A stretch of DNA of 45,000 bases from positions 1,205,001 to 1,250,000 of the forward strand of contig OZ026556.1 of NCBI GenBank assembly GCA_964020155.1, in the 5' to 3' direction. The notes below the pieces were generated by a model that saw nothing but the letters and a program-made list of their open reading frames with translations, made no database searches and was not told the DNA's origin. A program made the position numbers and the translations under genes. The stretch comes from Chondrilla cf. caribensis (taxonomy: Eukaryota > Porifera > Demospongiae > Chondrillida > Chondrillidae). Below, in pieces: positions 22,317 through 45,000 of the stretch. The number at the start of each line of letters is the position of its first letter. Within the stretch, counting starts at the first letter, position 1.

Positions 22317-23111
22317 ATGGCTGGCAGTGCAGGTCCTTCGCTGTTGCCTATAATCGACGGCCTCAAGGAAAAGAACATCATACTTCTGTCCACGTCACCC
22401 GGCCGGAGATGGCTACATGTTGTCAGGGAGGGCTTTATAACGAGCTTTCAGAGCTTGGGACTACAGGTAAAGGATGGGACAAGCATTGGCGTCTCCAATG
22501 TACACACCCTCTTGGAACCTAGAGAAAGGGACCACTTCATTCTCCTACACGGTGTCGAACGAGGAAAGTCGATTCAAGTGGCAAGCGAAATCGCCTCACT
22601 ACCTCCAAACCGTCTGGCCATTATCGTAAAGAGTAGGCGAGTAGTCCAAATGAAGGGTCTGAACGATAAAGAACATCTCAGAGTGATGGTGGTGAATGGT
22701 AACCTCGAAGATATTGCGGAGATCGCCAGGAGGATAGCAGTTATTTTTGGAGGTGAGTCAAGGTTGATGCGTATCAAATGTCCTCGCTTCACTACCTCCA
22801 AACCGACAAATAATTATTAGAACGTGCTTGGTTGAGGATCTTATCGTCACATAAGTACTGACTATGCAACTGCCCAAAATACTTGGGTTTCCAATTTGAG
22901 ATCTGGCGGAGATTTGGATCTTTGAAATATGCAGGCATCTCCAACGTTGCAATGTCTCTTGTCCTCTCTGTCCACAGCTCCCTGCATCAAGGCTGCCGAA
23001 AAGGACAATGTGAAGTGGTCCAAGGATCCTCTGATGATCACTGTTAGCAGGGGAAAAGATGAAGTTTCCAATCTTGGACTATCTATTGTAACCAGAGAGG
23101 TGAATTATTAC

Positions 23112-23150
<39 letters not shown>

Positions 23151-23199
23151 GTGTGTGTGTGTAGGTGTGTGTGTGTGTGTGTAGGTGTGTGTGTGTGTG

Positions 23200-23262
<63 letters not shown>

Positions 23263-23276
23263 GTGTGTGTGTGTGT

Positions 23277-23346
<70 letters not shown>

Positions 23347-26300
23347 GTGTGTGTGTGTGTGTAGGTGTGTGTGTGTGTGTGTGTGTATGTGTGTGTGTGT
23401 ATGTGTGTGTGTGTGTGTGTGTGTAGGTGTGTGTGTGATTGTGTCAGTATAACTAGGCTGTCTCGGATGTGTGCCTAAGTGGGCACTACTGGAGGTGGTG
23501 TAGTTTATTATAGCAGTTAGTCCACACATCAGGGAGACAACTTTCAACCAACCAGTATTTAACCGAAGTGTGTGATTTGATGAGCTTATTAATCACAAAC
23601 ATGCAATGTAGATTGCACAATCTACAATTGAAATTGACCAATCTATAGAGTAGTTATAATCACACTTAAGCTGTAACAGTTATAGATCACTCAAGAGAGT
23701 ATGACAATTTCTTTCAATGGAAGAACAGAACATAATTAGATTAAGTTATTAGTCTGGAAAGTCCCAGGAGCAGCCGCCTAGTGGAAACCTTTGTCAAATG
23801 TTCTGTCAGCAAAGCCCCAAATGATTGGAAGTCACATACTGTGGACTCTAGGCTGTTGGAGGTAAACACTTGCAAGCCTTCTGGAGTAAGCTGATAAAAG
23901 AGAGCAGACCTCCCATTTGTACATAATGCATTCATTTCGTGCATATCCTACCAATTTGAAATATACAGCTCTCTGTGAAATTGATCACAAATACACAACA
24001 ATAATCGGGTATGCAAATTGAAAATTCTAACACCTCCTTAATGTACAGGTGTGAACTAACCACTGTATTGGTGCTCTCACCCCATATCTGTGAATTCAAG
24101 TGATGTGCATTGCCTAGCTATAGCCAGCTTGTCTAGTATGCACACATGTTTTTGACATTGTTGACCTTGTGCCTAGTAACACTGCCATCACTTAGACTGA
24201 GTGCTAGTGCATGTTGCAGTGTGGTCAATGTGTACCTACCCTTTGTGAAGTGGCATGTACAACTCTGGATCGTTGAGCATTTTTGGTTTGCTGAAGTTAT
24301 GCACAGTACAAGGCATGGGACTTCTCTGCTGTTCCCTATGCACGTACACATATACCAGTGTAACTTGGTGTGAATGTAGATACTTTGTACGTATACGTAT
24401 AGTACACAGGTATGTTCTGTTTTCTCAATACAGGTCCATCCCACTAGCCCGTACGAGTGTATCACACTTATCAAGAGTATCAATACCTCTGACAGTACAG
24501 CCAGTGTCAAGTTGGAGACGTTCATGCATATTCAAAGTGTGAATGGGCTACTTCTGGATGGTCTCTCCACCGATATAGCATCAGAGACAATTTGCCACAT
24601 TGAACAAGGCCCAGTTTTTCTCATGGTGCGGCCTGCCAGAAAAGATCGAAGCAAGCTTACTAGTCCGGCTACTCCCCTGACAGACACACCATCTGGTTTG
24701 CCATCCTCACTCCCTCCCCAACCACCCCCACCCCCAGTGTACAAGGGAGTGTGCTGGTTAAAAGAAGGTGTGTTTCAGCTAAAATGGACAGAAAAGCCAA
24801 TTGAAGTACAGTTGAGGACTGAAACTCTACATCTCATCCCAGCACTGATCACTGTGAGTTCCTCAAGTATGCTCAGAATTGTGGTGTGTGGTACTTGGTC
24901 ATGTAATGTACATACCAACCAGCAGAAACATTTTCAATTGGTCTGGTCGATTAAACGAAAATATTTATACTATGTGATGCATGCATGTAGGCGATTGTGA
25001 AGGATTGTCATCAATTTTTCTTTTACCACAATGATATTGAACACTTGTACATGTCCAAACATTGCAACAAATGCAACACTAATACAGATACCATTCTCCG
25101 TGTGCGGGGGAATGGTAGTCACAGAAACTAAACGGGGGGTTGTTTTCAAGACATCACTATTGAATTTTTTCCGTGTAGGAGCCAAAGGCCAGACAGCAGA
25201 AGGCAACCATCATTGGATACGTTGACAGCCTTCCAGTTTGGTCTGATTCTAGAGGTCATCTCATTGTAGCCGTCAATGGTGTTGAGGTACTGGAGAAGAG
25301 CCCACAAGATGTGAAAAAACTGATCAGTGAGACTCCAGACGAAAGTCTAGTGTCTCTTGTCGTGTATCTCTGTGAAGAAGGACCCAAACCACTGGCTGAG
25401 AATGTCTACAGTGACATCATCAAGTCCTACAAGCTCAGATATGACCAGTACATAGAAGCCAGCAGTAGACTCGACGTTGGCATTGGATTTGAAGAGCTGC
25501 CCTCAATCAACAAACACCCTTCCAATCCCCCTGTCTACTTTGCAGGCAGCAGCAACGAATGCAGTACGAAAGTGTACGAAGTGATGACCAGAGGAGAAAC
25601 CACCTCAAACATGCAAGATGAAAGTAGCATCCACTCTCGGCAGCTATCAATGGGAGAAACTACCTCAAATGTACAAGCCAAAGTGGTCGAACGTCACAGC
25701 TTCCCTCGCAAGACATCTGAAGATACCTCACCACCAGCTACCCACCCACAGTTCGCTAACTGTATTACTTTGAAAAGTTCGGGCAGTATCAGCAGCCTTC
25801 ATTCTCCTGTGGAGAAGCCATCCCTCCTGACGACAAAGTGTGTCAATGATGATTGGAACCCTCTTCCTTCCTTCACACACACTCCAGAATCCCTGGATAA
25901 CTGCGGGAAGTTTGTCCTTCAAAACATCAACTTTAGACAACTGCAAGAAGAGAACATCACTCTGTGTCCTCTCCAGGAGCAGCTCTACCTCAAACCGAAC
26001 ACCATCTGCGTCTATAGCATAGATTTGGAGGAACTCACCCTATCCCCTCACACGTCATTCACTCGACTGTACGAGTTTCTCTGCTTTTTCCATTTGCGTC
26101 ACAAACCCAAAGGCATGAAGGTGATCCTGGTGGGAGCCTACGACTCTTCCACAGAGTACGGGTCAAAGCTGGATGATGCTCGCCTGGAGTGGTTCTGTAG
26201 TAGGATCCCCGAGTTACTGCAGGACAAGCACGTCAATGAATTGCTCTTTGAAGACAGGACCAAGAGCAGAATCCATTTGATTCCCTTCGATCTGGCTAAT

Positions 26301-28338
26301 CCCGAGAAAGGCATTGCATCCCTCCAAGATGTGATCAAAAAGTGCATTAAGATTTATCACTTGAGGATAGAGGCAACAACCGACGACAACCAGAAAATGC
26401 CTCAGAGTCTGAAGCAATGGCCACTCTTCTTGGGGAAGGTGATGGAGTTATCATCTTCACAGCCTCTCATATCTAAAGACGATTTGAAGAGGCTGGCAAG
26501 TAGAGTTCTTTGGATCGAAGGAGGACAGCTTTTTGACCAATGTTTGGAATGTTTGTACCAGTCCTCTTTGCTCCAAACAAACGGTGAGTACAGTACACCT
26601 AAATGCATGAGCTGTGACTGTGTGTTCATTATTACATTGGTCCTCACCCACAGGTCCCGTTGCAGACAGTGGTCTCTTGACAAGTCCCGACCTCATCGTA
26701 AGAGTGATAGCGCAACTTGGTGATCCGAATTTCCTCGGTAGGGTTCTGGAACAAGCCAGTAAAATAGAGTCCCGTCAGCTGAAGGACTACGCCTGTGTTA
26801 CCACAAAGCTTCTACAGAGGACCATCCGAGATCTCTCTGGTCTATCACCAGACGAATGTAGCTGTCTTGTTGAGTGGATGAAGTACTTGAAGATAGCTCT
26901 TCCTGTCAGCTCTGGTGCATCTCAGGATTCATACCTCTTCATTCCAGCAATCACTACGTCTTCTCACTGGAGAGTCGGAGAAAATGCCTACAATTTCAAG
27001 GAAGCTGCAGAGCTCTATGTCGACCTTCCTGAGTCCACAACACTCATGTTCTTCCACGATCTGGCGAACAGCCTCTTTTCCCAGATAGACCTCACCGAAC
27101 CTAGGGAAGTCATCACTTTGGACCGTGCTTGTACGAAAGTGAGAATTCCCAAACTAGGAGTCTACCCGGGATGCCCCATGACCTTCGATGTGGTACTCCA
27201 GTACAGTGTGATCCAATCTCAGATCAAGATATCAATCAAGTGAGTGTTCCCTCACTTGTTGAAACCTGTACTGTGTGTTCCACCACATTATCATACACAG
27301 ACATATACTCTACGTTATATCCTCACCCATAAATACCCACACAGAGTAGTTCTATGTGAACTGTGGTTAAACGTATGTACATATGTGCGCATGTATGAGT
27401 GGTTGTATAGAAATGTATATTATGAGTAACAATGTCGTGTTGACGTGGTTGTTTGTGAGCAGTTAACAATCATGTGGACTATTGACAGTGATAGCTTCCT
27501 CCTTCAATCCTCCCTCTACAGACCCTGGCAGGCAGATCTTGTCACAACAGCAGAAAAGTACTTCAAAGGTCTCATCTTAAAGCTGGACCCCTCGATGGAA
27601 TCTCAATTGGTTATTGGACCATCCTTCATTCATCCTTTAGCTACAGCTCGTGCTCGTTCCATGAGCACTTTCCACTTTCTGGAAGAAGTTCAGCGATCTC
27701 TTCCTTCTCCTTCAGTTGAGACCAAGCCAACCTATGTTGTGAATGCAGCTGTAGTTAGACGCCAAATCGCCAGTGGTATGGATACGGTACCCATTGAAAC
27801 CACAATGGGATATGTATATTTCCCCATTTCTGAAGTACCCAATCTGAATCAGTGGGTCTATGACCCAAAAAAGGTGCATGCAGTCAAAGAGAAGAAGGTG
27901 TGTACACATGCATACACCAAGTGTACTTGGAGTGAAGATTGGTCTTGTGAAACTAGACACCAACATGTTAATGATTTATGATATGGCTGACTATGCTGAT
28001 CATTTCTAAGTAATCTTTGATGATGTAATATGATGTCACAACTTGTTCTCTGCTGTAGGACATGTCATTAATGAGAGCTCTCAATAAAGTTGCTGAATGG
28101 CTGGCTCCTCATCCTGAGTCATGTTCAGTGATTGCCTGTGAAAATGGTATTGTCAGTGATGCAGGCCCCGAAGCCCTCTCCCTGGCCAGTAATGTTGGCG
28201 AGCCTGCTGCGTACAAGCTGATACGTATGTGGCAAGCCAGGCAACTGTCCATATCTCGTCTTCGAGAAGCTCTTCTCCGACACCACCACAATGCAGCAGC
28301 TGCAGAATTGGAGCCATTTTGCCATATTGCAAGTATGT

Positions 28339-28402
<64 letters not shown>

Positions 28403-28490
28403 GTGTGTGTGCATGCTTGCATGAGCATGTGTGTGTAGTGTACATCCATCCACACATGTTGTGTGTGTATGTGTGTGTGAGAGAAAGTCC

Positions 28491-28521
<31 letters not shown>

Positions 28522-28981
28522 TCACATTTATATATCTTCCCATACAACATGTCCATGTGGCCGCTGAGTACTACCCGTACTTTGTGTATACCATCTTTAC
28601 ATGGTCTGTGTTTACTGTAATTATGCTAAAATGGTTGAATGTTGACTTTAATTATGTCTGTTTATTCCAGAAACTCCTGCTCTTCGTCAGTTCCTCCAAA
28701 ACTCGCATGAAGACTTTGTGAGCTCCGTAGATGCTAGAGCCATAGTAATGTACCTCAAAGGTGAACGTTTGATACCTGAACCAGTGTCAACCAAAATAGA
28801 GGGTGCTTTGACCGTGCGTGATGCCAATGGTTTCCTCTTCGAGCACCTCTTGAACCAAGGAGTCCCAAGGAACCTAGCAAAAGTGTTTGAGATCATGAAG
28901 AACGAGCCGGGCTATGACAGAATGAACAAATTCGGTGAAGAAATGGGAAACAATTTATCTCTCTACCTTTCATGTAAATGA
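22317..28981 (+). CDS. DRC-4: alpha/beta domain - PDZ - PDZ - Roc-like - COR-like - DEATH - CARD protein
   Basis: Exons: 22317-22752, 22978-23099, 24434-24853, 25179-26583, 26654-27239, 27522-27897, 28059-28332, 28671-28981. They sum to 3930 nt (1309 aa) with matching phases. Aa 1-145: alternating strands and helices ([29 protein letters not shown]), family not recognised. Aa 163-254: PDZ-like (LGLSIV loop, HIQSVNG, FLMVRPA). Aa 255-295: polyproline linker. Aa 300-396: second PDZ-like (HLIVAVNG). Aa 420-680: Roc-like, with strand [10 protein letters not shown] but no GxxxxGK[ST], so probably not nucleotide-binding. Aa 680-990: COR-like ([21 protein letters not shown]). Aa 1116-1206: DEATH-like ([10 protein letters not shown]). 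Aa 1207-1309: CARD-like six-helix region. No signal peptide or membrane helix, so cytosolic. Likely a death-fold scaffold in immune or apoptotic signalling (inference). Exon structure is strong; individual domain names are moderate. Confidence 0.82.
23115..23438. repeat. Long (GT)n microsatellite, DRC-4 intron 2
   Basis: Over 300 bp of GT repeats with regular TAGG and TATG interruptions, starting 16 bp after the 23099 donor. Confidence 0.95.
28344..28400. repeat. GT then GA microsatellite, DRC-4 intron 7
   Basis: GT run turning into GA repeats just after the 28332 donor; a second GT run lies at 28493-28519. The same block recurs at 35551-35608 in DRC-5 with slightly different run lengths. 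Confidence 0.93.
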
Positions 28982-29208
28982 CAAATGATGTACATGTTAA
29001 AAAAATCACCTCCAATTTAATCCTACATGTACACCCACCCACCCATGTTACTTCATTTACATTGAAACAGTCAACACTGTTTATGTAACTATCCTTTGTA
29101 TGTCAGATGTATTTTTGTATAGCTACTTACTACATTGTAGTGACCACATGGTGGTTGTGCCTTCCACCTAGAAACTGTTCTGATCTTTAATTCACACTAT
29201 ATGTAGGT

Positions 29209-29210
<2 letters not shown>

Positions 29211-29274
<64 letters not shown>

Positions 29275-29288
29275 CGTGTGTGTGTGCA

Positions 29289-29320
<32 letters not shown>

Positions 29321-29334
29321 TGTGTGTGTGTGTG
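29211..29334. repeat. GT microsatellite upstream of DRC-5
   Basis: GT run with a CGTGCGTG segment in the DRC-4/DRC-5 spacer. Its counterpart near 36420-36553 is about 10 bp longer, which accounts for the offset shift between the two 7.2-kb copies. Confidence 0.93.
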
Positions 29335-29532
29335 TCATAGCAGAAAGATCTGTTCAGCAGTATGTGGGAGTGACATAATCAATCGGAAGTCACGAGAAAG
29401 GGGAATCACAGAGCTGTACTGGCCAGCATTCCATGCTATGCTGTCAAGAAGAGCGTTATCGAAGGGTAGCCATTTTCCCGACAGCAAAGTCGTACATTAC
29501 GCTTAGCACCGCCCAGCTCGGCGTGTTCGTTT

Positions 29533-29538
29533 TATAAA
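29533..29538 (+). promoter_or_regulatory. TATA-like box of DRC-5
   Basis: TATAAA lies 50 bp before the ATG at 29588. A start of transcription about 25-30 bp downstream would leave a very short 5' leader. Confidence 0.5.
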
Positions 29539-29587
29539 ACCTGAAGTTCTTCGAGGATCATTCACTTCCCCAGCTGTGGTCGACAGA

Positions 29588-30282
29588 ATGATGGATAGCG
29601 CAGGTAATTCGCTCTATCCACTTATCGCCGAGCTCAAAGGGAGGAATATTATCCTACTCTCCACCTCATCCGACAAGATATGGGCGAGTTCTGTGAAGAA
29701 GAGCGTTATCGAAGGCTTCTCGGACATGGGGCTACAAGTAATCGATAAGACCAGTTCGAATATTTCCTATTGGGAACCTAGAGAAAGGGACCACTTCATC
29801 CTCCTACACGGTGCCGAAGGAGGAAAGTCCATTCATGTGGCAAGCGAAATCACTTCACTACCTCCAAACCGTCTGGCCATTATCGTAAAGAGTAGGCGAG
29901 TAGCATCAATCGATGGTCTAAGTTCAAAAGAACATCTGAGAGTGAAGGTAGAGAGGGGTAGCGCTGACAAGCTCAAGGAGATCTGCCACAGAATCTCAGT
30001 CGTATTTGGAGGTACGTAACATAACTACGATAGTTACTAGATTGGGGTAACACTCCACATGCTTTGTGTGGTTTATACTCCGAAGTACTGACGTAAGGTT
30101 AATATAAGATCAACATCTGATCATCACGGCACGTATCCAATCTATTTAAGGATTTTCCACATCCACAGCTCCCCGCATCAAGGCTGCTGAAGCCGACAAT
30201 GTCATGTGGTCCAAGGATCCTCTGATGGTCACTGTAAATAAGAAAAAAGATGTATCCCTCGGCCTGTCCATCATATCAAGAC

Positions 30283-30326
<44 letters not shown>

Positions 30327-33300
30327 TTGTGTGTTTGTGTGTGTGTGTGAGTGTGTGCGTGAGAGCATACATGAGCGTGTGTACCTGTGTGCTTGCATGT
30401 GTTTAATATAGCTATAGTATACTAATAAAATTATATTATGTAATATCACATTGTTATTGAAGCAATCATGCAGTAGACCATTCTGGGGGTCCCACAAAAG
30501 ACAATCACATTACATCAACAGCACTCAAACATAAGACTTCGATTGTTATCTTTATATAATAGCATCTTTATTCTTATTATTGTTATTATTATGCTGGAGT
30601 TTAAGTACTTGTACGGCTGTTTTCTTCAATTATCTATGGTATAATTATGTGGAAAAAAATTATTATTGTTTACATATTATTAATGTCCTAGGGGCTTTCT
30701 ATTCATGGGTAAGTAGCCAAGACTGCCGATACCTATCTTCTGTAGACCCCATATGAACATCATCCTCCCTGAACTTTCCTACCAAAAGAAACCTTTACTA
30801 CCTAAACAGAGCATACCCTATACGTATAGGGAATCTCTTTGGTGTAAGGGGAGTGGGCTATCCCCCAATCTGCTAGGGCATAATTAACATACCCCATCCC
30901 CAACATCGCCAGACCAGAAGTGATCACACTTCTCACTCCACGTTTCCAGCCTTTGTGAGTTTTGAGAAACTCTAACCTGGGGAAAATAGCCCACTATCCT
31001 TTCACGTCAATTTAAGATTGATAGAGATCCTAAAAAATCGGGAGTTGAAGATAGTGCTATTTTCTTTGCGTGGCACGAGGAAAACAACTGCACATGCGCC
31101 GTGGTACAATATGAGGCACATGACCCATTGACTGCGTAATCATGATGATGCTAGGCGTGGCGATTTCAAGCCCTTTGCCATTATACTACATTCAACTACA
31201 TATAATGGTTACTAACTTAGTGTATGTCCAAGTTTGCATTAGCATATTTATTGTATACTTGGATATACAATAATTAGCCTCGTCCCCAGACCACCTTCAT
31301 ACGTTGGTCTAGTGCCTTTACTTGGTATTTTGTTCAAATGGAAACTTACGGTATTACACAGACATTACATTCACTATCTTCCTCCAACTGTACAACAAAT
31401 CATCCTATTTTATGGTGATGCAAGGAAACTTTTGGATACACTTTGTAATGTTAAGTGTCATTGTATGTATTGTGCATGTATCCTGCATAGTTATTGTAAT
31501 CATGATATTGTGGTCTAATGTCTTCTCAATACAGGTCCATCCCACTAGCCCGTACAAGTGTATCACACTTATCAAGAGTATCGATACCTATGACAGTACA
31601 GCCAGTGTACGGTTGAAGAAGTTCATGCACATTCAAAGTGTGAATGGGCTACTTCTGGATGGTCTCTCCTCCCATATAGCATCAGAGACAATTCGCCACA
31701 TTGAACAAGGCCCTGTTTTCCTCATGGTGCGGCCTGCCAGCAAGGATCGAAGCAAGCTTACTAGTCCGGCCACTCCCCTGATAGACACACCACTGGGCAC
31801 TCCTGGACGTACACCACCTGGTTTGCCATCCTCACTCCCTCCCCAACCACCCCCACCCCCAGTGTACAAAGGAGTGTGCCGGTTAATAAAGCGTCCATTT
31901 GAGCTGAAGTGGACGGAAAGGCCAATTGAAGTACAGTTGAGGACTGAGACTCTACATCTCATCCCAGCACTGATCACTGTGAGTTCCTCAAGTATGCTCA
32001 GAACTGTGGTGTGTAGTACTCGGTCATGTAATGTACATACATGTACTTACTACCCTCTACGTGGTATACGGTATGTACCATGTACATGTACGTTTTCTCT
32101 ATACAGCAGTTTATGTAGTGTACACAGGTGTGTATATTCTGATGTTTATATGTCATTTTCCTGTTATTTTTTCTGTGTAGGAGCCAAAGGCCAAACAGCA
32201 GAAGGCAACCATCATTGGATACGGTGACAGCCTTCCAGTTTGGTCTGATTCTAGAGGTCATCTCATTGTAGCCGTCAATGGTGTTGAGGTACTGGAGAAG
32301 GGTCCACAAGATGTGAAGAAGATGATCAGTGAGACTCCAGACAAAAGTCTAGTGTCTTTTGTCGTGTATTTCTGTGAAGAGGGACCCAAACCACTGGCTG
32401 AGAATGTCTACAGCGACATCATCAAGTCCTACAAGCCCAGACAGGACCAGGACACAGAAGCCAGCAGTAGACTCGATGACGATGATGGATTTGAAGAATC
32501 GTTGGACCCTTCTTTGGAGCCTGTGGCCATTTCATCAAAGCGTGCCATCCCTGTCTACTTTGCAGGCAGCAGAAGAGAATGCAGTACGAAAGTGTACGAA
32601 GTGATGACCAGAGGAGAAACCACCTCAAATATGCAAGATGAAAGTAGCATCCACTCTCGGCAGCTATCAATGGGAGAAGACAGTACATTTCTCAGGCCGA
32701 CTGCGACAACACCATCTTCCGATCCTCCATCACTCGTCATCACAACTGCGGAATTCTCAGTTAATTCAATGTCAGGTCAACAATTGCCCAGAACATTAGC
32801 AGAATGGCAGTTAACCCGAAATGTGTACAGAGTGATGACTAAAGAAGAAACTACCTCAATTGAGGACGACAGTTTTTGTTGTAAAAATGGTAATTATGCA
32901 GACATCTCACCATTAACCATTGACAGTGGAGTCATTAGCAGCATAAGTTCTGAAGTAGGATCGCTTGAGTCATTGATTAGCCTAAGTAGTGACAGTACCA
33001 ATAGCCTTGATTTCAGTGCTGAGAAGCCATCCCTCCTGACAACAAAGTGTGTCAATGATGATTGGAACCCTCTTCCTTCCTTCACACACACTCCAGAATC
33101 CCTGGACAACTGCGGGAAGTTTGTCCTTCAAAACATCAACTTTAGACAACTGCAAGAAGAGAACATCACTCTGTGTCCTCTCCAGGAGCAGCTCTACCTC
33201 AAACCGAACACCATCTGCGTCTATAGCATAGATTTGGAGGAACTCACCCTATCCCCTCACACGTCATTCACTCGACTATACGAATTTCTCTGCTTCTTCC

Positions 33301-35547
33301 ATTTGCATCACCATCCCAAAGGCATGAAGGTGATCCTGGTGGGAGCCTACGACTCTTCCACAGAGTACGGGTCAACACTGGATGATGCTCGCTTGGAGTG
33401 GTTCTGTAGTAGGATCCCCGAGTTACTGCAGGACAAGCACGTCAATGAATTGCTCTTTGAAGACAGGACCAAGAGCAGAATCCATTTGATTCCCTTCGAT
33501 CTGGCTAATCCCGAGAAAGGCATTGCATCCCTCCAAGATGTGATCAAAGAGTGCATTAAGAAGTATCACTTGAGGGTAGAGGCAACAACCGACGACAACC
33601 AGAAAATGCCTCAGAGTCTGAAGCAATGGCCACTCTTCTTGGGGAAGGTGATGGAGTTATCATCTTCACAGCCTCTCATATCTAAAGACGATTTGAAGAG
33701 GCTGGCAAGTAGAGTTCTTTGGATCGAAGGAGGACAGCTTTTTGACCAATGTTTGGAATGTTTGTACCAGTCCTCTTTGCTTCAAACAAACGGTGAGTAC
33801 AGTACACCTAAATGCATGAGCTGTGACTGTGTGTTCATCATTACTTTGGTCCTCACCCACAGGTCCCGTTGCAGACAGTGGTCTCTTGACAAGTCCCGAC
33901 CTCATTGTGAGGGTGATAGCGCAACTTGGTGATCCGAATTTCCTCGGTAGGGTTCTGGAACAAGCCAGTAAAATAGACTCCCGTCAGCTGAAGGACTACG
34001 CCTGTGTTACCACAAAGCTTCTACAGAGGACCATCCGAGATCTCTCTGGTCTATCACCAGACGAATGTAGCTGTCTTGTTGAGTGGATGAAGTACTTGAA
34101 GATAGCTCTTCCTGTCAGCTCTGGTGCATCTCAGGATTCATACCTCTTCATTCCAGCAATCACTACGTCTTCTCGCTGGAGAATCAGAGACGATGCCTAC
34201 AATTCCAAGGAAGCTGTAGAGCTCTATGTCGACCTTCCTGAGTCCACAACACTCATGTTCTTCCACGATCTGGCGAACAGCCTCTTTTCCCAGATAGACC
34301 TCACCGAACCTAGGGAAGTCATCACTTTGGACCGTGCTTGCATGAATGTTAGAATTCCCAAACTTGGAATCTACCCAGGATGCCCCATGACCTTTGATGT
34401 GGTACTCCAGTACAGTGTGATCCAATCTCAGATCAAGATATCAATCAAGTGAGTGTTCCCTCACTTGTTGGAACCTGTACTGTGTGTTCCACCACATTAT
34501 CATACACAGACATATACTCTACGTTATATCCTCACCCATACATTCCCACACAGAGTAGTTCTATGTGAACTGTGGTTAAACGTATGTACATATGTGCGCA
34601 TGTATGAGTGGTTGTATAGAAATGTATATTATGAGTAACAATGTCATGTTGACGTGGTTGTTTGTGAACAGTTAACAATCATGTGGACTATTGACAGTGA
34701 TAGCTTCCTCCTTCAATCCTCCCTCTACAGACCCTGGCAGGCAGATCTTGTCACAACAGCAGAAAAGTACTTCAAAGGTCTCATCTTAAAGCTGGACCCC
34801 TCGATGGAATCTCAATTGGTTATTGGACCATCCTTCATTCATCCTTTAGCTACAGCTCGTGCTCGTTCCATGAGCACTTTCCACTTTCTGGAAGAAGTTC
34901 AGCGATCTCTTCCTTCTCCTTCAGTTGAGACCAAGCCAACCTATGTTGTGAATGCAGCTGTAGTTAGACGCCAAATCGCCAGTGGTATGGATACGGTACC
35001 CATTGAAACCACAATGGGATATGTATATTTCCCCATTTCTGAAGTACCCAATCTGAATCAGTGGGTCTATGACCCAAAAAAGGTGCATGCAGTCAAAGAG
35101 AAGAAGGTGTGTACACATGCATACACCAAGTGTACTTGGAGTGAAGATTGGTCTTGTGAAACTAGACACCAACATGTTAATGATTTATGATATGGCTGAC
35201 TATGCTGATCATTTCTAAGTAATCTTTGATGATGTAATATGATGTCACAACTTGTTCTCTGCTGTAGGACATGTCATTAATGAGAGCTCTCAATAAAGTT
35301 GCTGAATGGCTGGCTCCTCATCCTGAGTCATGTTCAGTGATTGCCTGTGAAAATGGTATTGTCAGTGATGCAGGCCCCGAAGCCCTCTCCCTGGCCAGTA
35401 ATGTTGGCGAGCCTGCTGCGTACAAGCTGATACGTATGTGGCAAGCCAGGCAACTGTCCATATCTCGTCTTCGAGAAGCTCTTCTCCGACACCACCACAA
35501 TGCAGCAGCTGCAGAATTGGAGCCATTTTGCCATATTGCAAGTATGT

Positions 35548-35606
<59 letters not shown>

Positions 35607-35699
35607 TACATGTGTGTGTGCATGCTTGCATGAGCATGTGTGTGTAGTGTACATCCATCCACACATGTTGTGTGTGTATGTGTGTGTGAGAGAAAGTCC

Positions 35700-35730
<31 letters not shown>

Positions 35731-36190
35731 TCACATTTATATATCTTCCCATATAACATGTCCATGTGGCCGCTGAGTACTACCCGTACTTTGTGTATAC
35801 CATCTTTACATGGTCTGTGTTTACTGTAATTATGCTAAAATGGTTGAATGTTGACTTTAATTATGTCTGTTTATTCCAGAAACTCCTGCTCTTCGTCAGT
35901 TCCTCCAAAACTCGCATGAAGACTTTGTGAGCTCCGTAGATGCTAGAGCCATAGTAATGTACCTCAAAGGTGAACGTTTGATACCTGAACCAGTGTCAAC
36001 CAAAATAGAGGGTGCTTTGACCGTGCGTGATGCCAATGGTTTCCTCTTCGAGCACCTCTTGAACCAAGGAGTCCCAAGGAACCTAGCAAAAGTGTTTGAG
36101 ATCATGAAGAACGAGCCGGGCTATGACAGAATGAACAAATTCGGTGAAGAAATGGGAAACAATTTATCTCTCTACCTTTCATGTAAATGA
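29588..36190 (+). CDS. DRC-5: second CARD-ending paralogue; hybrid of DRC-6 (5') and DRC-4 (3')
   Basis: Exons: 29588-30011, 30169-30284, 31535-31978, 32181-33792, 33863-34448, 34731-35106, 35268-35541, 35880-36190. They sum to 4143 nt (1380 aa). Domain order is as in DRC-4: unknown alpha/beta domain aa 1-141, PDZ-like pair, polyproline linker, Roc-like and COR-like region, DEATH-like aa 1187-1277, CARD-like aa 1278-1380. Exon 4 is 207 nt longer than in DRC-4 because the region before the Roc-like segment holds a second VYRVMTKEETTS-type repeat of [12 protein letters not shown]. Exons 1-5 are nearly identical to DRC-6, whereas exons 6-8 match DRC-4, so the gene changes parentage inside intron 5. 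A TATA-like box lies 50 bp before the start. The reading frame is intact throughout, so the hybrid should be functional, unless the copy is an assembly artefact. Confidence 0.82.
30285..30362. repeat. (GT)n microsatellite forming the donor of DRC-5 intron 2
   Basis: The intron begins inside the GT run directly after codon CAG. The same arrangement is at 37504-37581 in DRC-6. Confidence 0.93.
30285..31534. other. DRC-5 intron 2 (1250 bp); duplicated at 37504-38753
   Basis: No gene seen. After the GT run it is AT-rich. It includes a perfect 16-bp palindrome CCCTATACGTATAGGG at 30816-30831 and a small inverted pair AGTGGGCTAT / ATAGCCCACT (about 30850-30994). The corresponding DRC-4 intron (23100-24433) shares no obvious sequence beyond GT repeats. 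Confidence 0.55.
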
Positions 36191-36417
36191 CAAATGATGT
36201 ACATGTTAAAAAAATCACCTCCAATTTAATCCTACATGTACACCCACCCACCCATGTTACTTCATTTACATTGAAACAGTCAACACTGTTTATGTAACTA
36301 TCCTTTGTATGTCAGATGTATTTTTGTATAGCTACTTACTACATTGTAGTGACCACATGGTGGTTGTGCCTTCCACCTAGAAACTGTTCTGATCTTTAAT
36401 TCACACTATATGTAGGT

Positions 36418-36493
<76 letters not shown>

Positions 36494-36507
36494 CGTGTGT
36501 GTGTGCA

Positions 36508-36539
<32 letters not shown>

Positions 36540-36806
36540 TGTGTGTGTGTGTGTCATAGCAGAAAGATCTGTTCAGCAGTATGTGGGAGTGACATAATCA
36601 ATCGGAAGTCACGAGAAAGGGGAATCACAGAGCTGTACTGGCCAGCATTCCATGCTATGCTGTCAAGAAGAGCGTTATCGAAGGGTAGCCATTTTCCCGA
36701 CAGCAAAGTCGTACATTACGCTTAGCACCGCCCAGCTCGGCGTGTTCGTTTTATAAAACCTGAAGTTCTTCGAGGATCATTCACTTCCCCAGCTGTGGTC
36801 GACAGA
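36191..36806. other. DRC-5/DRC-6 spacer
   Basis: Nearly identical duplicate of the DRC-4/DRC-5 spacer, with a longer GT tract. No gene seen. Confidence 0.65.
36752..36757 (+). promoter_or_regulatory. TATA-like box of DRC-6
   Basis: Identical to the DRC-5 site and 50 bp before the ATG at 36807. DRC-4 has no comparable box in its diverged upstream region, so it may be regulated differently. Confidence 0.5.
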
Positions 36807-37501
36807 ATGATGGATAGCGCAGGTAATTCGCTCTATCCACTTATCGCCGAGCTCAAAGGGAGGAATATTATCCTACTCTCCACCTCATCCGACAAGATAT
36901 GGGCGAGTTCTGTGAAGAAGAGCGTTATCGAAGGCTTCTCGGACATGGGGCTACAAGTAATCGATAAGACCAGTTCGAATATTTCCTATTGGGAACCTAG
37001 AGAAAGGGACCACTTCATCCTCCTACACGGTGCCGAAGGAGGAAAGTCCATTCATGTGGCAAGCGAAATCACTTCACTACCTCCAAACCGTCTGGCCATT
37101 ATCGTAAAGAGTAGGCGAGTAGCATCAATCGATGGTCTAAGTTCAAAAGAACATCTGAGAGTGAAGGTAGAGAGGGGTAGCGCTGACAAGCTCAAGGAGA
37201 TCTGCCACAGAATCTCAGTCGTATTTGGAGGTACGTAACATAACTACGATAGTTACTAGATTGGGGTAACACTCCACATGCTTTGTGTGGTTTATACTCC
37301 GAAGTACTGACGTAAGGTTAATATAAGATCAACATCTGATCATCACGGCACGTATCCAATCTATTTAAGGATTTTCCACATCCACAGCTCCCCGCATCAA
37401 GGCTGCTGAAGCCGACAATGTCATGTGGTCCAAGGATCCTCTGATGGTCACTGTAAATAAGAAAAAAGATGTATCCCTCGGCCTGTCCATCATATCAAGA
37501 C

Positions 37502-37545
<44 letters not shown>

Positions 37546-40500
37546 TTGTGTGTTTGTGTGTGTGTGTGAGTGTGTGCGTGAGAGCATACATGAGCGTGTG
37601 TACCTGTGTGCTTGCATGTGTTTAATATAGCTATAGTATACTAATAAAATTATATTATGTAATATCACATTGTTATTGAAGCAATCATGCAGTAGACCAT
37701 TCTGGGGGTCCCACAAAAGACAATCACATTACATCAACAGCACTCAAACATAAGACTTCGATTGTTATCTTTATATAATAGCATCTTTATTCTTATTATT
37801 GTTATTATTATGCTGGAGTTTAAGTACTTGTACGGCTGTTTTCTTCAATTATCTATGGTATAATTATGTGGAAAAAAATTATTATTGTTTACATATTATT
37901 AATGTCCTAGGGGCTTTCTATTCATGGGTAAGTAGCCAAGACTGCCGATACCTATCTTCTGTAGACCCCATATGAACATCATCCTCCCTGAACTTTCCTA
38001 CCAAAAGAAACCTTTACTACCTAAACAGAGCATACCCTATACGTATAGGGAATCTCTTTGGTGTAAGGGGAGTGGGCTATCCCCCAATCTGCTAGGGCAT
38101 AATTAACATACCCCATCCCCAACATCGCCAGACCAGAAGTGATCACACTTCTCACTCCACGTTTCCAGCCTTTGTGAGTTTTGAGAAACTCTAACCTGGG
38201 GAAAATAGCCCACTATCCTTTCACGTCAATTTAAGATTGATAGAGATCCTAAAAAATCGGGAGTTGAAGATAGTGCTATTTTCTTTGCGTGGCACGAGGA
38301 AAACAACTGCACATGCGCCGTGGTACAATATGAGGCACATGACCCATTGACTGCGTAATCATGATGATGCTAGGCGTGGCGATTTCAAGCCCTTTGCCAT
38401 TATACTACATTCAACTACATATAATGGTTACTAACTTAGTGTATGTCCAAGTTTGCATTAGCATATTTATTGTATACTTGGATATACAATAATTAGCCTC
38501 GTCCCCAGACCACCTTCATACGTTGGTCTAGTGCCTTTACTTGGTATTTTGTTCAAATGGAAACTTACGGTATTACACAGACATTACATTCACTATCTTC
38601 CTCCAACTGTACAACAAATCATCCTATTTTATGGTGATGCAAGGAAACTTTTGGATACACTTTGTAATGTTAAGTGTCATTGTATGTATTGTGCATGTAT
38701 CCTGCATAGTTATTGTAATCATGATATTGTGGTCTAATGTCTTCTCAATACAGGTCCATCCCACTAGCCCGTACAAGTGTATCACACTTATCAAGAGTAT
38801 CGATACCTATGACAGTACAGCCAGTGTACGGTTGAAGAAGTTCATGCACATTCAAAGTGTGAATGGGCTACTTCTGGATGGTCTCTCCTCCCATATAGCA
38901 TCAGAGACAATTCGCCACATTGAACAAGGCCCTGTTTTCCTCATGGTGCGGCCTGCCAGCAAGGATCGAAGCAAGCTTACTAGTCCGGCCACTCCCCTGA
39001 TAGACACACCACTGGGCACTCCTGGACGTACACCACCTGGTTTGCCATCCTCACTCCCTCCCCAACCACCCCCACCCCCAGTGTACAAAGGAGTGTGCCG
39101 GTTAATAAAGCGTCCATTTGAGCTGAAGTGGACGGAAAGGCCAATTGAAGTACAGTTGAGGACTGAGACTCTACATCTCATCCCAGCACTGATCACTGTG
39201 AGTTCCTCAAGTATGCTCAGAACTGTGGTGTGTAGTACTCGGTCATGTAATGTACATACATGTACTTACTACCCTCTACGTGGTATACGGTATGTACCAT
39301 GTACATGTACGTTTTCTCTATACAGCAGTTTATGTAGTGTACACAGGTGTGTATATTCTGATGTTTATATGTCATTTTCCTGTTATTTTTTCTGTGTAGG
39401 AGCCAAAGGCCAAACAGCAGAAGGCAACCATCATTGGATACGGTGACAGCCTTCCAGTTTGGTCTGATTCTAGAGGTCATCTCATTGTAGCCGTCAATGG
39501 TGTTGAGGTACTGGAGAAGGGTCCACAAGATGTGAAGAAGATGATCAGTGAGACTCCAGACAAAAGTCTAGTGTCTTTTGTCGTGTATTTCTGTGAAGAG
39601 GGACCCAAACCACTGGCTGAGAATGTCTACAGCGACATCATCAAGTCCTACAAGCCCAGACAGGACCAGGACACAGAAGCCAGCAGTAGACTCGATGACG
39701 ATGATGGATTTGAAGAATCGTTGGACCCTTCTTTGGAGCCTGTGGCCATTTCATCAAAGCGTGCCATCCCTGTCTACTTTGCAGGCAGCAGAAGAGAATG
39801 CAGTACGAAAGTGTACGAAGTGATGACCAGAGGAGAAACCACCTCAAATATGCAAGATGAAAGTAGCATCCACTCTCGGCAGCTATCAATGGGAGAAGAC
39901 AGTACATTTCTCAGGCCGACTGCGACAACACCATCTTCCGATCCTCCATCACTCGTCATCACAACTGCGGAATTCTCAGTTAATTCAATGTCAGGTCAAC
40001 AATTGCCCAGAACATTAGCAGAATGGCAGTTAACCCGAAATGTGTACAGAGTGATGACTAAAGAAGAAACTACCTCAATTGAGGACGACAGTTTTTGTTG
40101 TAAAAATGGTAATTATGCAGACATCTCACCATTAACCATTGACAGTGGAGTCATTAGCAGCATAAGTTCTGAAGTAGGATCGCTTGAGTCATTGATTAGC
40201 CTAAGTAGTGACAGTACCAATAGCCTTGATTTCAGTGCTGAGAAGCCATCCCTCCTGACAACAAAGTGTGTCAATGATGATTGGAACCCTCTTCCTTCCT
40301 TCACACACACTCCAGAATCCCTGGACAACTGCGGGAAGTTTGTCCTTCAAAACATCAACTTTAGACAACTGCAAGAAGAGAACATCACTCTGTGTCCTCT
40401 CCAGGAGCAGCTCTACCTCAAACCGAACACCATCTGCGTCTATAGCATAGATTTGGAGGAACTCACCCTATCCCCTCACACGTCATTCACTCGACTATAC

Positions 40501-43500
40501 GAATTTCTCTGCTTCTTCCATTTGCGTCACCATCCCAAAGGCATGCAGGTGATCCTGGTGGGAGCCTACGACTCTTCCACAGAGTACGGGTCAACACTGG
40601 ATGATGCTCGCTTGGAGTGGTTCTGTAGTAGGATCCCCGAGTTACTGCAGGACAAGCACGTCAATGAATTGCTCTTTGAAGACAGGACCAAGAGCAGAAT
40701 CCATTTGATTCCCTTCGATCTGGCTAATCCCGAGAAAGGCATTGCATCCCTCCAAGATGTGATCAAAGAGTGCATTAAGAAGTATCACTTGAGGGTAGAG
40801 GCAACAACCGACGACAACCAGAAAATGCCTCAGAGTCTGAAGCAATGGCCACTCTTCTTGGGGAAGGTGATGGAGTTATCATCTTCACAGCCTCTCATAT
40901 CTAAAGACGATTTGAAGAGGCTGGCAAGTAGAGTTCTTTGGATCGAAGGAGGACAGCTTTTTGACCAATGTTTGGAATGTTTGTACCAGTCCTCTTTGCT
41001 CCAAACAAACGGTGAGTACAGTACACCTAAATGCATGAGCTGTGACTGTGTGTTCATCATTACTTTGGTCCTCACCCACAGGTCCCGTTGCAGACAGTGG
41101 TCTCTTGACAAGTCCCGACCTCATTGTGAGGGTGATAGCGCAACTTGGTGATCCGAATTTCCTCGGTAGGGTTCTGGAACAAGCCAGTAAAATAGACTCC
41201 CGTCAGCTGAAGGACTACGCCTGTGTTACCACAAAGCTTCTACAGAGGACCATCCGAGATCTCTCTGGTCTATCACCAGACGAATGTAGCTGTCTTGTTG
41301 AGTGGATGAAGTACTTGAAGATAGCTCTTCCTGTCAGCTCTGGTGCATCTCAGGATTCATACCTCTTCATTCCAGCAATCACTACGTCTTCTCGCTGGAG
41401 AATCAGAGACGATGCCTACAATTCCAAGGAAGCTGTAGAGCTCTATGTCGACCTTCCTGAGTCCACAACACTCATGTTCTTCCACGATCTGGCGAACAGC
41501 CTCTTTTCCCAGATAGACCTCACCGAACCTAGGGAAGTCATCACTTTGGACCGTGCTTGCATGAATGTTAGAATTCCCAAACTTGGAATCTACCCAGGAT
41601 GCCCCATGACCTTTGATGTGGTACTCCAGTACAGTGTGATCCAATCTCAGATCAAGATATCAATCAAGTGAGTGTTCCCTCACTTGTTGGAACCTGTACT
41701 GTGTGTTCCACCACATTATCATACACAGACATATACTCTACGTTATATCCTCACCCATACATTCCCACACAGAGTAGTTCTATGTGAACTGTGGTCAAAC
41801 ATATGTACATATGTGCGCATGTATGAGTGGTTGTATAGAAATGTATATTATGAGTAACAATGTCGTGTTGACGTGGTTGTTTGTGAGCAGTTAACAATCA
41901 TGTGGACTATTGATAGTGATAGCTTCCTCCTTCAATCCTCCCTCTACAGCCCCTGGCAGGCAGATCTTGTCACAACAGCAGAAAAGTACTTCAAAGGTCT
42001 CATCTTAAAGCTGGACCCCTCGATGGAATCTCAATTGGTTATTGGACCATCCTTCATTCATCCTTTAGCTACAGCTCGTGCTCGTTCCATGAGCACTTTC
42101 CACTTTCTGGAAGAAGTTCAGCGATCTCTTCCTTCTCCTTCAGTTGAGACCAAGCCAACCTATGTTGTGAATGCAGCTGTAGTTAGACGCCAAATCGCCA
42201 ATGGAATAGAGCCACAAGTACCCATTGAAACCACAAAGGGAAGCTATGAATATTTCCTGGTCTCCAAAATACCCGGTCTGAGTCAGTGGGTCTATGATCC
42301 GATATATTTACATACAGAGAACAATGGACAAGAGAAGAAGGTACGTATATACACATGCATACACTGTGTACATTTAGAGTAAAGATTTGTCTTGTGTAAC
42401 CAGATACCCACATGTTGGTAAATATACATTAATACTGAGCAATTCTTATTTTCCGTGATGTAATATGATGTCACAACTTGTTCTCTGCTGTAGGACATGT
42501 TACTGATGAGAGCTCTCAGTAAAGTTGCTGAATGGCTGTTACCTGAACCCAAGACATGTTCTGTGATTGCCTGTGAGAATGGTATTGTCAGTGATGCAGG
42601 CCCCGAAGCCCTCTCCCTGGCCAGTAATGTTGGCGAGCCTGCTGCGTACAAGCTGATACGTATGTGGCAAGCCAGACAACTGTCCATATCTCGTCTTCGA
42701 GAAGCTCTTCTCCGGCACCACCACAATGCAGCAGCTGCAGAACTGGAGCCATTTTGTCATGATGCACGTATGTACCTGTGTGTGTGAGCATATACCCTTA
42801 GTACTGGGACTGGCAACTGCTGTAATTGGTATGCGTAAAGCGTGTTGTTAGTTAATGATATTCATTAGAAATGATGTCCTCTTGTAAGGCAAATTTTGTA
42901 CCTGCCCGTGTTCCTTGGGGAAGTTGTTATCTGGTGGAAGATTGGTTTGCATAGTAGTGCGGCAAAGTAGATAAAGCTTGTGCTTGAGCATTCAGCCTCT
43001 GTTTTGAGGAGAGAATGTGTACACAAATCACCTGAGTGAGAGCAGTAAATTGCCAAGAATCATCTGAATGAAGCGCTGTGAAGTACTAAACTGCAGACTA
43101 TATTGTCCAGACTACAGACAAGTACAGGACTAGATATTGGAAAGATACTAAAATGTTGGTTCGCTGAGAAAATGTGTGCACAATGCTTTGCAGCCAGTAT
43201 TTTGATTCTAAGTACTGTTGTATACGTATTATCAGGTGCACTAAGGCAAATGTGGTATCAACCTGTAGAGAATGCTAATCCTAACAATATATGTAAGCGC
43301 CGGCAGAATGTTGCCGAGCAGGGCTATGATACAAGGAATATTTTAAAATTGTTCTGCCCACACATTGGCAACACGGTTGAAACATTGTGGTTGATCATTT
43401 GTGGCATACAAACGTTAACTGTAATATGTGTTAATAATGAATTACGTCTGTTAAGTTACATGTGCTTGTACCCACACATTTATATTAAGTGTTAGTCATA

Positions 43501-43565
43501 ATTATGTGTATAAATTCTCGAATTGCCAGTCCTGGTATTTAGGGTCTATGGTGTGAGAGAGAGTG

Positions 43566-43633
<68 letters not shown>

Positions 43634-45000
43634 TGCACGCGCGCGTGTGTGTAGTGTACATCCATCCACACATTTATATATTTACAATATAATTCATTTT
43701 TGCAATATCCATGTTTATGTATGTATATGTGCTCACTCATGTTTGTGTGTTCTGATTCTTATTTTATCAGCTTCTTTGGTATGGTCAGAGAAAAGCACTG
43801 ACAGTGTGCCAGTGAAACATTCTCACTCCTTGGCCTCCACAGTGAAGAAAAGTAACTCTGAAGTGACCTCTAATTCAGTGGCTGTTATTGGGAGAACAGA
43901 GGATTTATCCATAAGACATGCTTTAACAAGCCCACTTGATGCACCACAGCCTCCAAATTCACCAAGTGTGTCTGAGTGGTCCAGGTCATCAGAGAGGAAC
44001 AGTGCAAATCCCTCCATCAAGCAGAGCCAAGAAAGTCTAAACACTGATTCTCAGGATGACGGTATTGTAATCGATCCTGAGGATACCACCAAACCGACTA
44101 CACAGGATCCTACTCTCGCTCTCATTGAGCAAAATCATCTGCAGACTCGCAGTGAAAAAGGTACATATCAAACATGACTTTTATCAGTAGTTTACATACA
44201 TACAAGATTACTACTACTTCCATTTACAGTTCTGACCCAAATGTGCTGGATCCCCTTTGGGATACACACTTTCAAAGTCCTTCCTCAAGGTGGTTCGTTC
44301 CATTTGGGGAAGTCTGGTACCACATCATATGGATGGGGATCAGCTGGTTTCATTCAAGTCCCAGAAGATGCCTTCACAACTACAAGCTTAGATGTTCACT
44401 GTGCCTTGATAGTGCACGGTCCTTTCTCCCTTCCTGACGGCTATCAGTTTGCCAGTCCTGTGGTCTACCTCACATTCGACACAACTAACACGACAAAGCC
44501 CATCACCTTGCACCTCCCTCACTGGTGTAAGAACGACCAGGAAGATCAGACTGATGACAACCTCATGTTTGTCATGGCACCGCACAGCCTTGGAGAAGGA
44601 GAGAAATCCTATCAGTTTCAGCCATTTGAAGGTGGACGATTCCTCATTCATGATGGAATTCTGTCCATCACTGGCCACAATAGCCTGTTTGCCGTAGCAT
44701 TCAAAAACACCGGGAAGTCCCATTATCATGCAACGTATTTGAGCAAGCATGATGAAGAAAAGGGTCATATTTGGAATGACGTTGTCTTCACGTATGCTCA
44801 TCCAATTTGGCAACAGGTTAGAAATTCCCATGCAATATGTGAACAAATGTCATTACATCTTAAAAACAGAGTACTGCAGTAGCCAATACATTTATACAGT
44901 GTGTGTACATTCCATACTCACAACACTACAATACTTCGAAGATGCTCTTTATAAAATAAGTGCTTTTGTGCAGAGGTCCGACTGTAGTCATGATTTTCAA
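36807..45000 (+). CDS. DRC-6: paralogue with ZU5-like C-terminus (3' end outside window)
   Basis: Exons: 36807-37230, 37388-37503, 38754-39197, 39400-41011, 41082-41667, 41950-42340, 42494-42767, 43771-44160, 44230-44816, and probably 44974 onward (acceptor at 44971-44973, open to the edge). Aa 1-1282 follow DRC-5: alpha/beta domain, PDZ-like pair, Roc-like and COR-like region, DEATH-like. The CARD exon is absent. Instead exon 8 adds a Ser/Thr/Pro-rich, probably disordered linker of 130 aa, and exon 9 (aa 1413-1608) holds a ZU5-like domain (GGSFHLGKSG, GFIQVPEDAF, SPVVYLTF, ITLHLPHW). ZU5 next to DEATH recalls PIDD1, UNC5 and ankyrins (family knowledge), although there ZU5 precedes DEATH. Exon 6 diverges abruptly from DRC-4 and DRC-5 after the shared RRQIA. 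Intron 7 carries a 750-bp inverted-repeat insertion. Confidence 0.8.
42795..43544. mobile_element. Terminal-inverted-repeat insertion in DRC-6 intron 7
   Basis: Intron 7 is 338 bp in DRC-4 and DRC-5 but about 1 kb here. The extra block begins CCCTTAGTACTGGGACTGG and ends CCAGTCCTGGTATTTAGGG, imperfect inverses of each other. Sequence homologous to the paralogues' intron (a 'gtagtgtacatccatccacaca' stretch) resumes at 43651. An open frame at 43103-43495 lies inside; I do not recognise its product. The CCCT start recalls piggyBac-type ends, but no TTAA target is seen. Confidence 0.6.
43567..43633. repeat. (GT)n microsatellite, DRC-6 intron 7
   Basis: GT run between the inverted-repeat insertion and the intron part shared with the paralogues. 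Confidence 0.93.

Follow-up and report, generated by a model that had tools for sequence, protein, structure and literature searches.

The 45,000-nucleotide stretch of Chondrilla cf. caribensis DNA analyzed here (the window, C11:1205001-1250000 of a 137.0-Mb assembly with 37 contigs, which was also the genome searched) carries in its second half three tandem plus-strand genes, g1, g2 and g3, that share one protein plan. On balance, we consider it probable that the array encodes cytosolic scaffolds with two PDZ domains and a CARD (g1 and g2) or ZU5-like (g3) tail, in which docking through PDZ would lead to CARD nucleation. A multidomain scaffold with a death-fold output is supported, as the proteins contain PDZ twice, CARD and a ZU5-like domain. 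The same plan was found in the three genes and in an inverted fourth copy; PDZ and CARD were assigned by profiles, and the ZU5-like domain by weak tests that agree with one another.

Using a draft model of g2 as query at E<=0.01, we found two relatives among public protein predictions: P0001 (1256 amino acids, 58% identical over 93%, contig of 4426 nt) and P0002 (1082 amino acids, contig of 4744 nt). The reading frame of P0001 runs unbroken through six exon borders of the window genes, while P0002 stops at the exon 5 border. The contigs of both are presumably cDNA, with P0001 continuous as cDNA would be and P0002 stopping as it would with a retained intron 5. Further public protein searches yielded P0003 (200 amino acids, the DEATH-like part, 47%), P0004, P0005, P0006 and P0007.

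In the final models, g1 (22317..28981) has 8 exons (22317-22752, 22978-23099, 24434-24853, 25179-26583, 26654-27239, 27522-27897, 28059-28332 and 28671-28981) and encodes 1309 amino acids. Gene g2 (29588..36190) also has 8 exons (29588-30011, 30169-30284, 31535-31978, 32181-33792, 33863-34448, 34731-35106, 35268-35541 and 35880-36190) and encodes 1380 amino acids. Gene g3 (36807..44816) has 9 visible exons (36807-37230, 37388-37503, 38754-39197, 39400-41011, 41082-41667, 41950-42340, 42494-42767, 43771-44160 and 44230-44816) and at least 1608 amino acids; because it enters a stretch reading N, its 3' end lies unseen beyond the window. Splicing of the window sequence showed that all internal exon borders are GT/AG and in phase, without internal stops. 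Three consecutive genes of one plan, as the original prediction had proposed, were thus recovered, and its start at 22317 is the ATG of g1. Past the N stretch, an open frame with a stop (L009 7426-7767, 113 amino acids) may be the end of g3 or a different gene. A 28-nt micro-exon (27345-27372 and its copies) was rejected, as P0001 reads LIK|PWQAD at that place; its broken splice donor in g3 (41773-41800), at instead of gt, was a further sign that it was wrong. The public protein search, the first Pfam scan and the exon identities were obtained with draft models that contained the micro-exon, and the exons compared are unaffected by the change; the hybrid identity and dN/dS figures given below were computed on the final models. 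No 19-residue stretch with the hydrophobicity of a membrane helix was present in g1, g2, g3, P0001 or P0004.

The PDZ pair was identified by comparing the family profile A1 with the Protein Data Bank (PDB). All 17 sequences at E<=5 were PDZ proteins, most of which we take to be such from the protein name (best E, 0.0046); 13 matched the first copy and 4 the second, with PAR-3, InaD-like and afadin at the top. The Pfam family PDZ_6 matched P0001 and P0002 at 3e-5, under its curated cut-off, and draft g2 at 0.013. The two PDZ-like domains recognized earlier are therefore retained. In g2, PDZ1 (30169..31738, end approximate) comprises exon 2 and the beginning of exon 3, with SLGLSI and VNGLLLDGLS recognized by eye, and PDZ2 (31871..32390, approximate) comprises the end of exon 3 and the start of exon 4. 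The polyproline linker that had been placed after the pair is present, but the sequence puts it between PDZ1 and PDZ2 (31815..31870, approximate). What follows PDZ2 is a long Ser-rich linker (32391..33020, approximate), which varies between the copies and has low confidence in the P0002 structure model.

The N-terminal domain, exon 1 of g2 (29588..30011), had been described as an unknown alpha/beta domain. The alpha/beta character was reproduced in the weak P0002 model, in which the head has a flavodoxin/TIR-like fold, TIR-like being tied with flavodoxins; the block means of pLDDT were 52-73 over residues 11-60 and 40-58 over residues 61-140. A GxxxGKS motif, one residue short of a P-loop, occurs in the N-terminal domain of g1, g2, g3, P0001 and P0002 (residues 75-81 of g2, window positions 29810-29830).

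We then analyzed the tails. Exon 8 of g1 (28671..28981) and of g2 (35880..36190), identical at 311 of 311 bases, encodes a CARD and the stop. With hhalign, the g1/g2 CARD reached 83% (E 8.8e-6) against a profile of 8 Pfam CARD matches from the same genome, while the other 35 pairs reached at most 2.3%. In two comparisons the CARD score was above all 300 shuffles, and reversed controls were flat. Pfam CARD itself gave no match for the window proteins, for the relatives or for the window in the genome search. In PDB searches with the DEATH-plus-CARD sequence and with profiles A3 and A2 there was no usable match; the best row of one such search was 4irl, a zebrafish CARD fusion (E 0.17), which was also among the fold rows. 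NCBIfam gave no match for P0001 and P0004, and matches to Cas6, Rad10 and further unrelated Pfam families (E >=0.02) were treated as chance.

In g3, exon 9 (44230..44816) encodes the ZU5-like domain. The Pfam family PF00791 matched it at E 0.036 and P0007 at E 0.21, both below the cut-off; against shuffles, p was 0.003-0.010, hhalign gave 2.3%, and the fold rows included the ZO1 ZU5 domain, 2kxs. The ZU5-like assignment is thus weakly backed, by several tests that are individually weak but agree. Of the "CARD or ZU5" tail in the original prediction, the CARD of g1 and g2 was confirmed and the ZU5-like domain of g3 less firmly so, but the two look less like alternatives, since P0004 (446 amino acids) contains a ZU5-like domain and a CARD in one chain. 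Among the best 95 of 294 candidate genome places, the ZU5 part of P0004 had its best place in g3 (62%, others <=43%), and its CARD part in g1 and g2 (54%, others <=42%). Given these matches, P0004 most probably represents, in a relative, the tail of this gene family. Because P0004 carries both, the g1/g2 CARD and the g3 ZU5 appear to derive from a single ancestral tail that had the two. In that case ZU5 would have disappeared from g1 and g2, and g3 could have a CARD in its unseen part or lack one. Elsewhere in the genome, at L069 (C8:5620601-5623000), a ZU5 exon precedes a CARD exon, the two lying within 1.9 kb; the sequence there reads GHCS where g3 has GHNS.

The body is shared between genes with different tails, and g2 changes from one version to another within intron 5. 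Up to that intron, g2 is nearly identical to g3, and from there on to g1, introns included: g2 and g3 differ at 3 positions in 29,300-34,576, and g2 and g1 at 4 positions in 34,577-36,421 and, in addition, by 10 nt of a TG repeat. Sequence comparison placed the switch point within 34545..34576 on the plus strand. Genes g1 and g2 keep 234 of 320 residues in the first three exons (dN 0.18, dS 0.38) and are nearly or fully identical in exons 6 to 8. With g1 as copy A and g3 as copy B, the order A, B/A, B is the product that unequal crossing-over between tandem copies would be expected to leave, and recombination between tandem copies would be the cause of the different tails. On the other hand, g2 could be a false duplication in which the assembler joined the g3 haplotype path to the g1 path, leaving two genes rather than three. 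Near identity to g3 and then to g1, with introns, fits such a wrong join. However, at 33,307, 33,782, 34,646 and 34,668 the sequence of g2 is unlike that of either neighbour, which counts mildly against a false join, and the TG-repeat difference from g1, together with an order and orientation that fit unequal crossing-over, also argues against it; we regard a false duplication as rather unlikely. Since the first part of g2 agrees with one neighbour and its last part with the other, recombination of tails on a common body is likely a way in which animals of this kind form new adaptors for immunity or cell death. The array seems to show tail exchange in the act, and, as the switch point in g2 is confined to 32 bases, the making of new death-fold adaptors becomes directly testable.

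To find further copies, we compared P0001 with the genome. The 29 matching places are all on C11 and belong to the three window genes and one inverted copy, 60 kb downstream (C11:1323937-1310127; L042, L043), with counterparts of exons 1 to 7. Exons 6 and 7 of this fourth copy have ~99% protein identity to g3, and its end is different and apparently short. The readable sequence between the fourth copy and the window, interrupted by N stretches at 1250001-1255000, 1292501-1297500 and 1317501-1320000, matched neither ZU5 nor CARD at E<=1e-4. In P0006, from another assembly (ENA contig of 1.91 Mb), what comes after the DEATH-like exon is part of exon 4, then of exon 3 and once more of exon 4; from this scrambled exon order, the family has been rearranged elsewhere too.

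Several results weigh against a PDZ-CARD scaffold with a death-fold output. P0001 has no CARD and finishes in a short tail. None of the four DEATH exon sequences matched Pfam, the COR profile scored no better than shuffles (p 0.116-0.213; hhalign COR, 0.24%), and both structure models are weak. The genome-wide searches with PF00531 (limited to the best 150 of 185 candidates), PF00619, PF00791 and PF16095 listed no place within the window. The count of DEATH matches next to ZU5 modules described below (14 versus 5 places) lacks a random-shift control, and one C14 stretch accounts for 9 of the 14 places.

The end of P0001 bears on whether body and tail belong together at all. The DEATH-like exon could be where the body ends, which seems to be so in P0001 and the fourth copy, with CARD and ZU5 in other transcripts; the short tail of P0001 and the lack of a ZU5/CARD match in the readable sequence from the fourth copy toward the window are what this would predict. 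However, in g1 and g2 the phase-1 splice sites of exon 7 and of the CARD exon, 338 nt apart, fit each other, the CARD exon ends in a stop, and one chain, P0004, joins the counterparts of the g1/g2 CARD and the g3 ZU5 exon. Separate genes are, in our estimate, quite improbable.

The middle of the proteins had been read as a degenerate Roc domain plus COR, followed by DEATH. In g2, the Roc-like segment (33021..33620) and the COR-like segment (33611..34448, the end of exon 4 and exon 5) are patterns seen by eye, and neither is established as a family. The DEATH-like exon 7 (28059..28332 in g1, 35268..35541 in g2 and 42494..42767 in g3) is borderline: hhalign gave 0.3% over an alignment of 72-73 columns, the DEATH HMM gave p 0.010-0.070 against shuffles, and PDZ2 of g1 outscores the DEATH-like exon on the same HMM. 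A Pfam hmmscan of draft g2, the 7 relatives and the 4 DEATH-exon sequences listed no Roc, COR or DEATH. Thus COR-like and DEATH-like are used here as names for patterns and not as established families, and the DEATH assignment of the original prediction is not confirmed at family level.

A ROCO-type sensor would have a Roc-COR core as in DAPK1 and LRRK2, with a GTP switch and an output through the DEATH-like domain, PDZ and CARD being accessory. This would be consistent with the COR-like helix pattern seen by eye after the Roc-like segment in the secondary structure of the model, and with a Foldseek match to LRRK2 that ranked 15 of 733 (E 0.077, prob 0.18, 451 columns). However, no GxxxxGK[ST] P-loop was found in g1, g2, P0001 or P0002, nor in the Roc-like part of g3, whose sole match (residue 1434) lies inside the ZU5-like exon. 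With no P-loop in the Roc-like part, GTP sensing is unlikely, and a GTP switch was rejected. The shuffle-level COR scores likewise speak against such a sensor, which we consider very unlikely; neither the degenerate Roc plus COR nor "Roc/COR sensing" could be upheld by the weak LRRK2 row and the patterns seen by eye.

To further explore the ZU5 module, we used P0007 as query and found at least 74 places in the genome at E<=1. A PF00531 DEATH match lies within 6 kb downstream of 14 of these places and upstream of 5, and a P0004-like CARD lies downstream of 4 and upstream of none, both counts being without a random control. The listed genome places number at least 101 for DEATH and 33 for CARD; such numbers, together with those for ZU5 in so compact an animal genome, would suit a sponge. 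Tandem expansions of the ZU5 module occur at C14:830908-1123476, where a PF00531 DEATH match lies 2.7-4.4 kb downstream of 9 ZU5 places, and at C8:3780810-4007422.

ZO-1 has PDZ domains and a C-terminal ZU5, and the array could likewise encode a scaffold of junctions or of the cytoskeleton that plays no part in cell death, its CARD being a protein-binding bundle only. The 2kxs row of ZO1 ZU5 and the lead of PAR-3, InaD-like and afadin among the PDZ profile matches would suit this explanation. Against it, the best supported tail is CARD, and some ZU5 modules in the genome stand before DEATH or CARD in the counts above. Like ZO-1, g3 combines PDZ with a ZU5-like domain, but no SH3 or GUK was found here, and the sister copies of g3 carry CARD. 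We therefore consider a scaffold of this kind unlikely, though deserving some weight.

If the proteins are PDZ-CARD scaffolds, the PDZ domains would dock on membrane or junction proteins, and, together with the polyproline stretch, could bind partners and concentrate the protein, by analogy with CARMA scaffolds. The flavodoxin/TIR-like head and the Roc/COR-like middle might aid self-association, which would proceed without GTP switching because there is no P-loop. Once crowded, the CARD tails would nucleate a CARD filament that takes in a caspase or adaptor with a CARD of its own, and the outcome of this assembly could be an immune or cell-death response. The ZU5-like domain may keep the tail inactive in g3 and in the ZU5-CARD relative, by analogy with UNC5b or CARD8.

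The closest analogue is the CARMA/CARD-CC-MAGUK group (CARD10, CARD11 and CARD14), which like the array has CARD and PDZ in one chain. CARMA proteins begin with CARD and continue with a coiled coil, one PDZ, SH3 and GUK. In contrast, the array proteins have two PDZ domains first and the CARD exon last, and Pfam scans showed no SH3 or GUK. According to PMC11165066 and PMC5978004, CARD scaffolds seed BCL10-MALT1 filaments, and a passage in PMC5978004 places the CARMA fusion with MAGUK early in jawed vertebrates. Given that date, a PDZ-CARD protein of the array would be a separate invention, and such a protein in an early-branching animal would, if true, be an independent solution to the problem that CARMA solves.

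The FIIND-CARD part of CARD8 and NLRP1 resembles the order ZU5-like then CARD in P0004 and in the neighbouring exons at C8:5620601-5623000, but UPA was not identified in P0004, and no NACHT or LRR was found. According to PMC3210808, cleavage of CARD8 and NLRP1 takes place at SF/S, and the Phe is buried. At the site that looks equivalent by eye, P0004, P0007 and g3 read GHNS, which makes self-cleavage of the ZU5-like domain doubtful. PIDD1, RAIDD and UNC5b are, like the array proteins, death-fold proteins with ZU5 or CARD parts. We know of no PDZ pair or alpha/beta head in these three, and the array proteins in turn have no LRR or membrane part. DAPK1 and LRRK2 share with the array a possible Roc-COR-like middle, followed by a DEATH-like exon, but the Roc-like part of the array lacks a P-loop and no kinase appeared in the Pfam scans.

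The full domain order had been described as without a known counterpart. No description of it was found among the open-access papers searched, our scope excluding subscription papers and unannotated proteomes, but the Roc, COR and DEATH of that order are not established; what is new among known death-fold adaptors is the domain combination. New combinations are common in the death-fold genes of sponges and cnidarians. Sponges and other marine invertebrates have lineage-specific death-fold architectures according to PMC8195603, which also treats ZU5 and FIIND. For the sponge Dysidea avara, passages in PMC12909245 report 128 DEATH and 39 CARD genes; the paper also describes NACHT-Zu5 in early animals. 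Less probable than the scaffold reading itself, but worth suggesting, is that a PDZ-plus-CARD signalling scaffold with a TIR-like head and an ancestral ZU5-CARD tail arose independently in a non-bilaterian animal, and that new versions of it continue to form by tail recombination in a tandem array.

The array adjoins kinase genes that appear receptor-like by eye: tandem tyrosine-kinase exons occupy positions 512-20840 of the window on the plus strand, and PK_Tyr_Ser-Thr was found in 8 of the 8 open reading frame pieces scanned.

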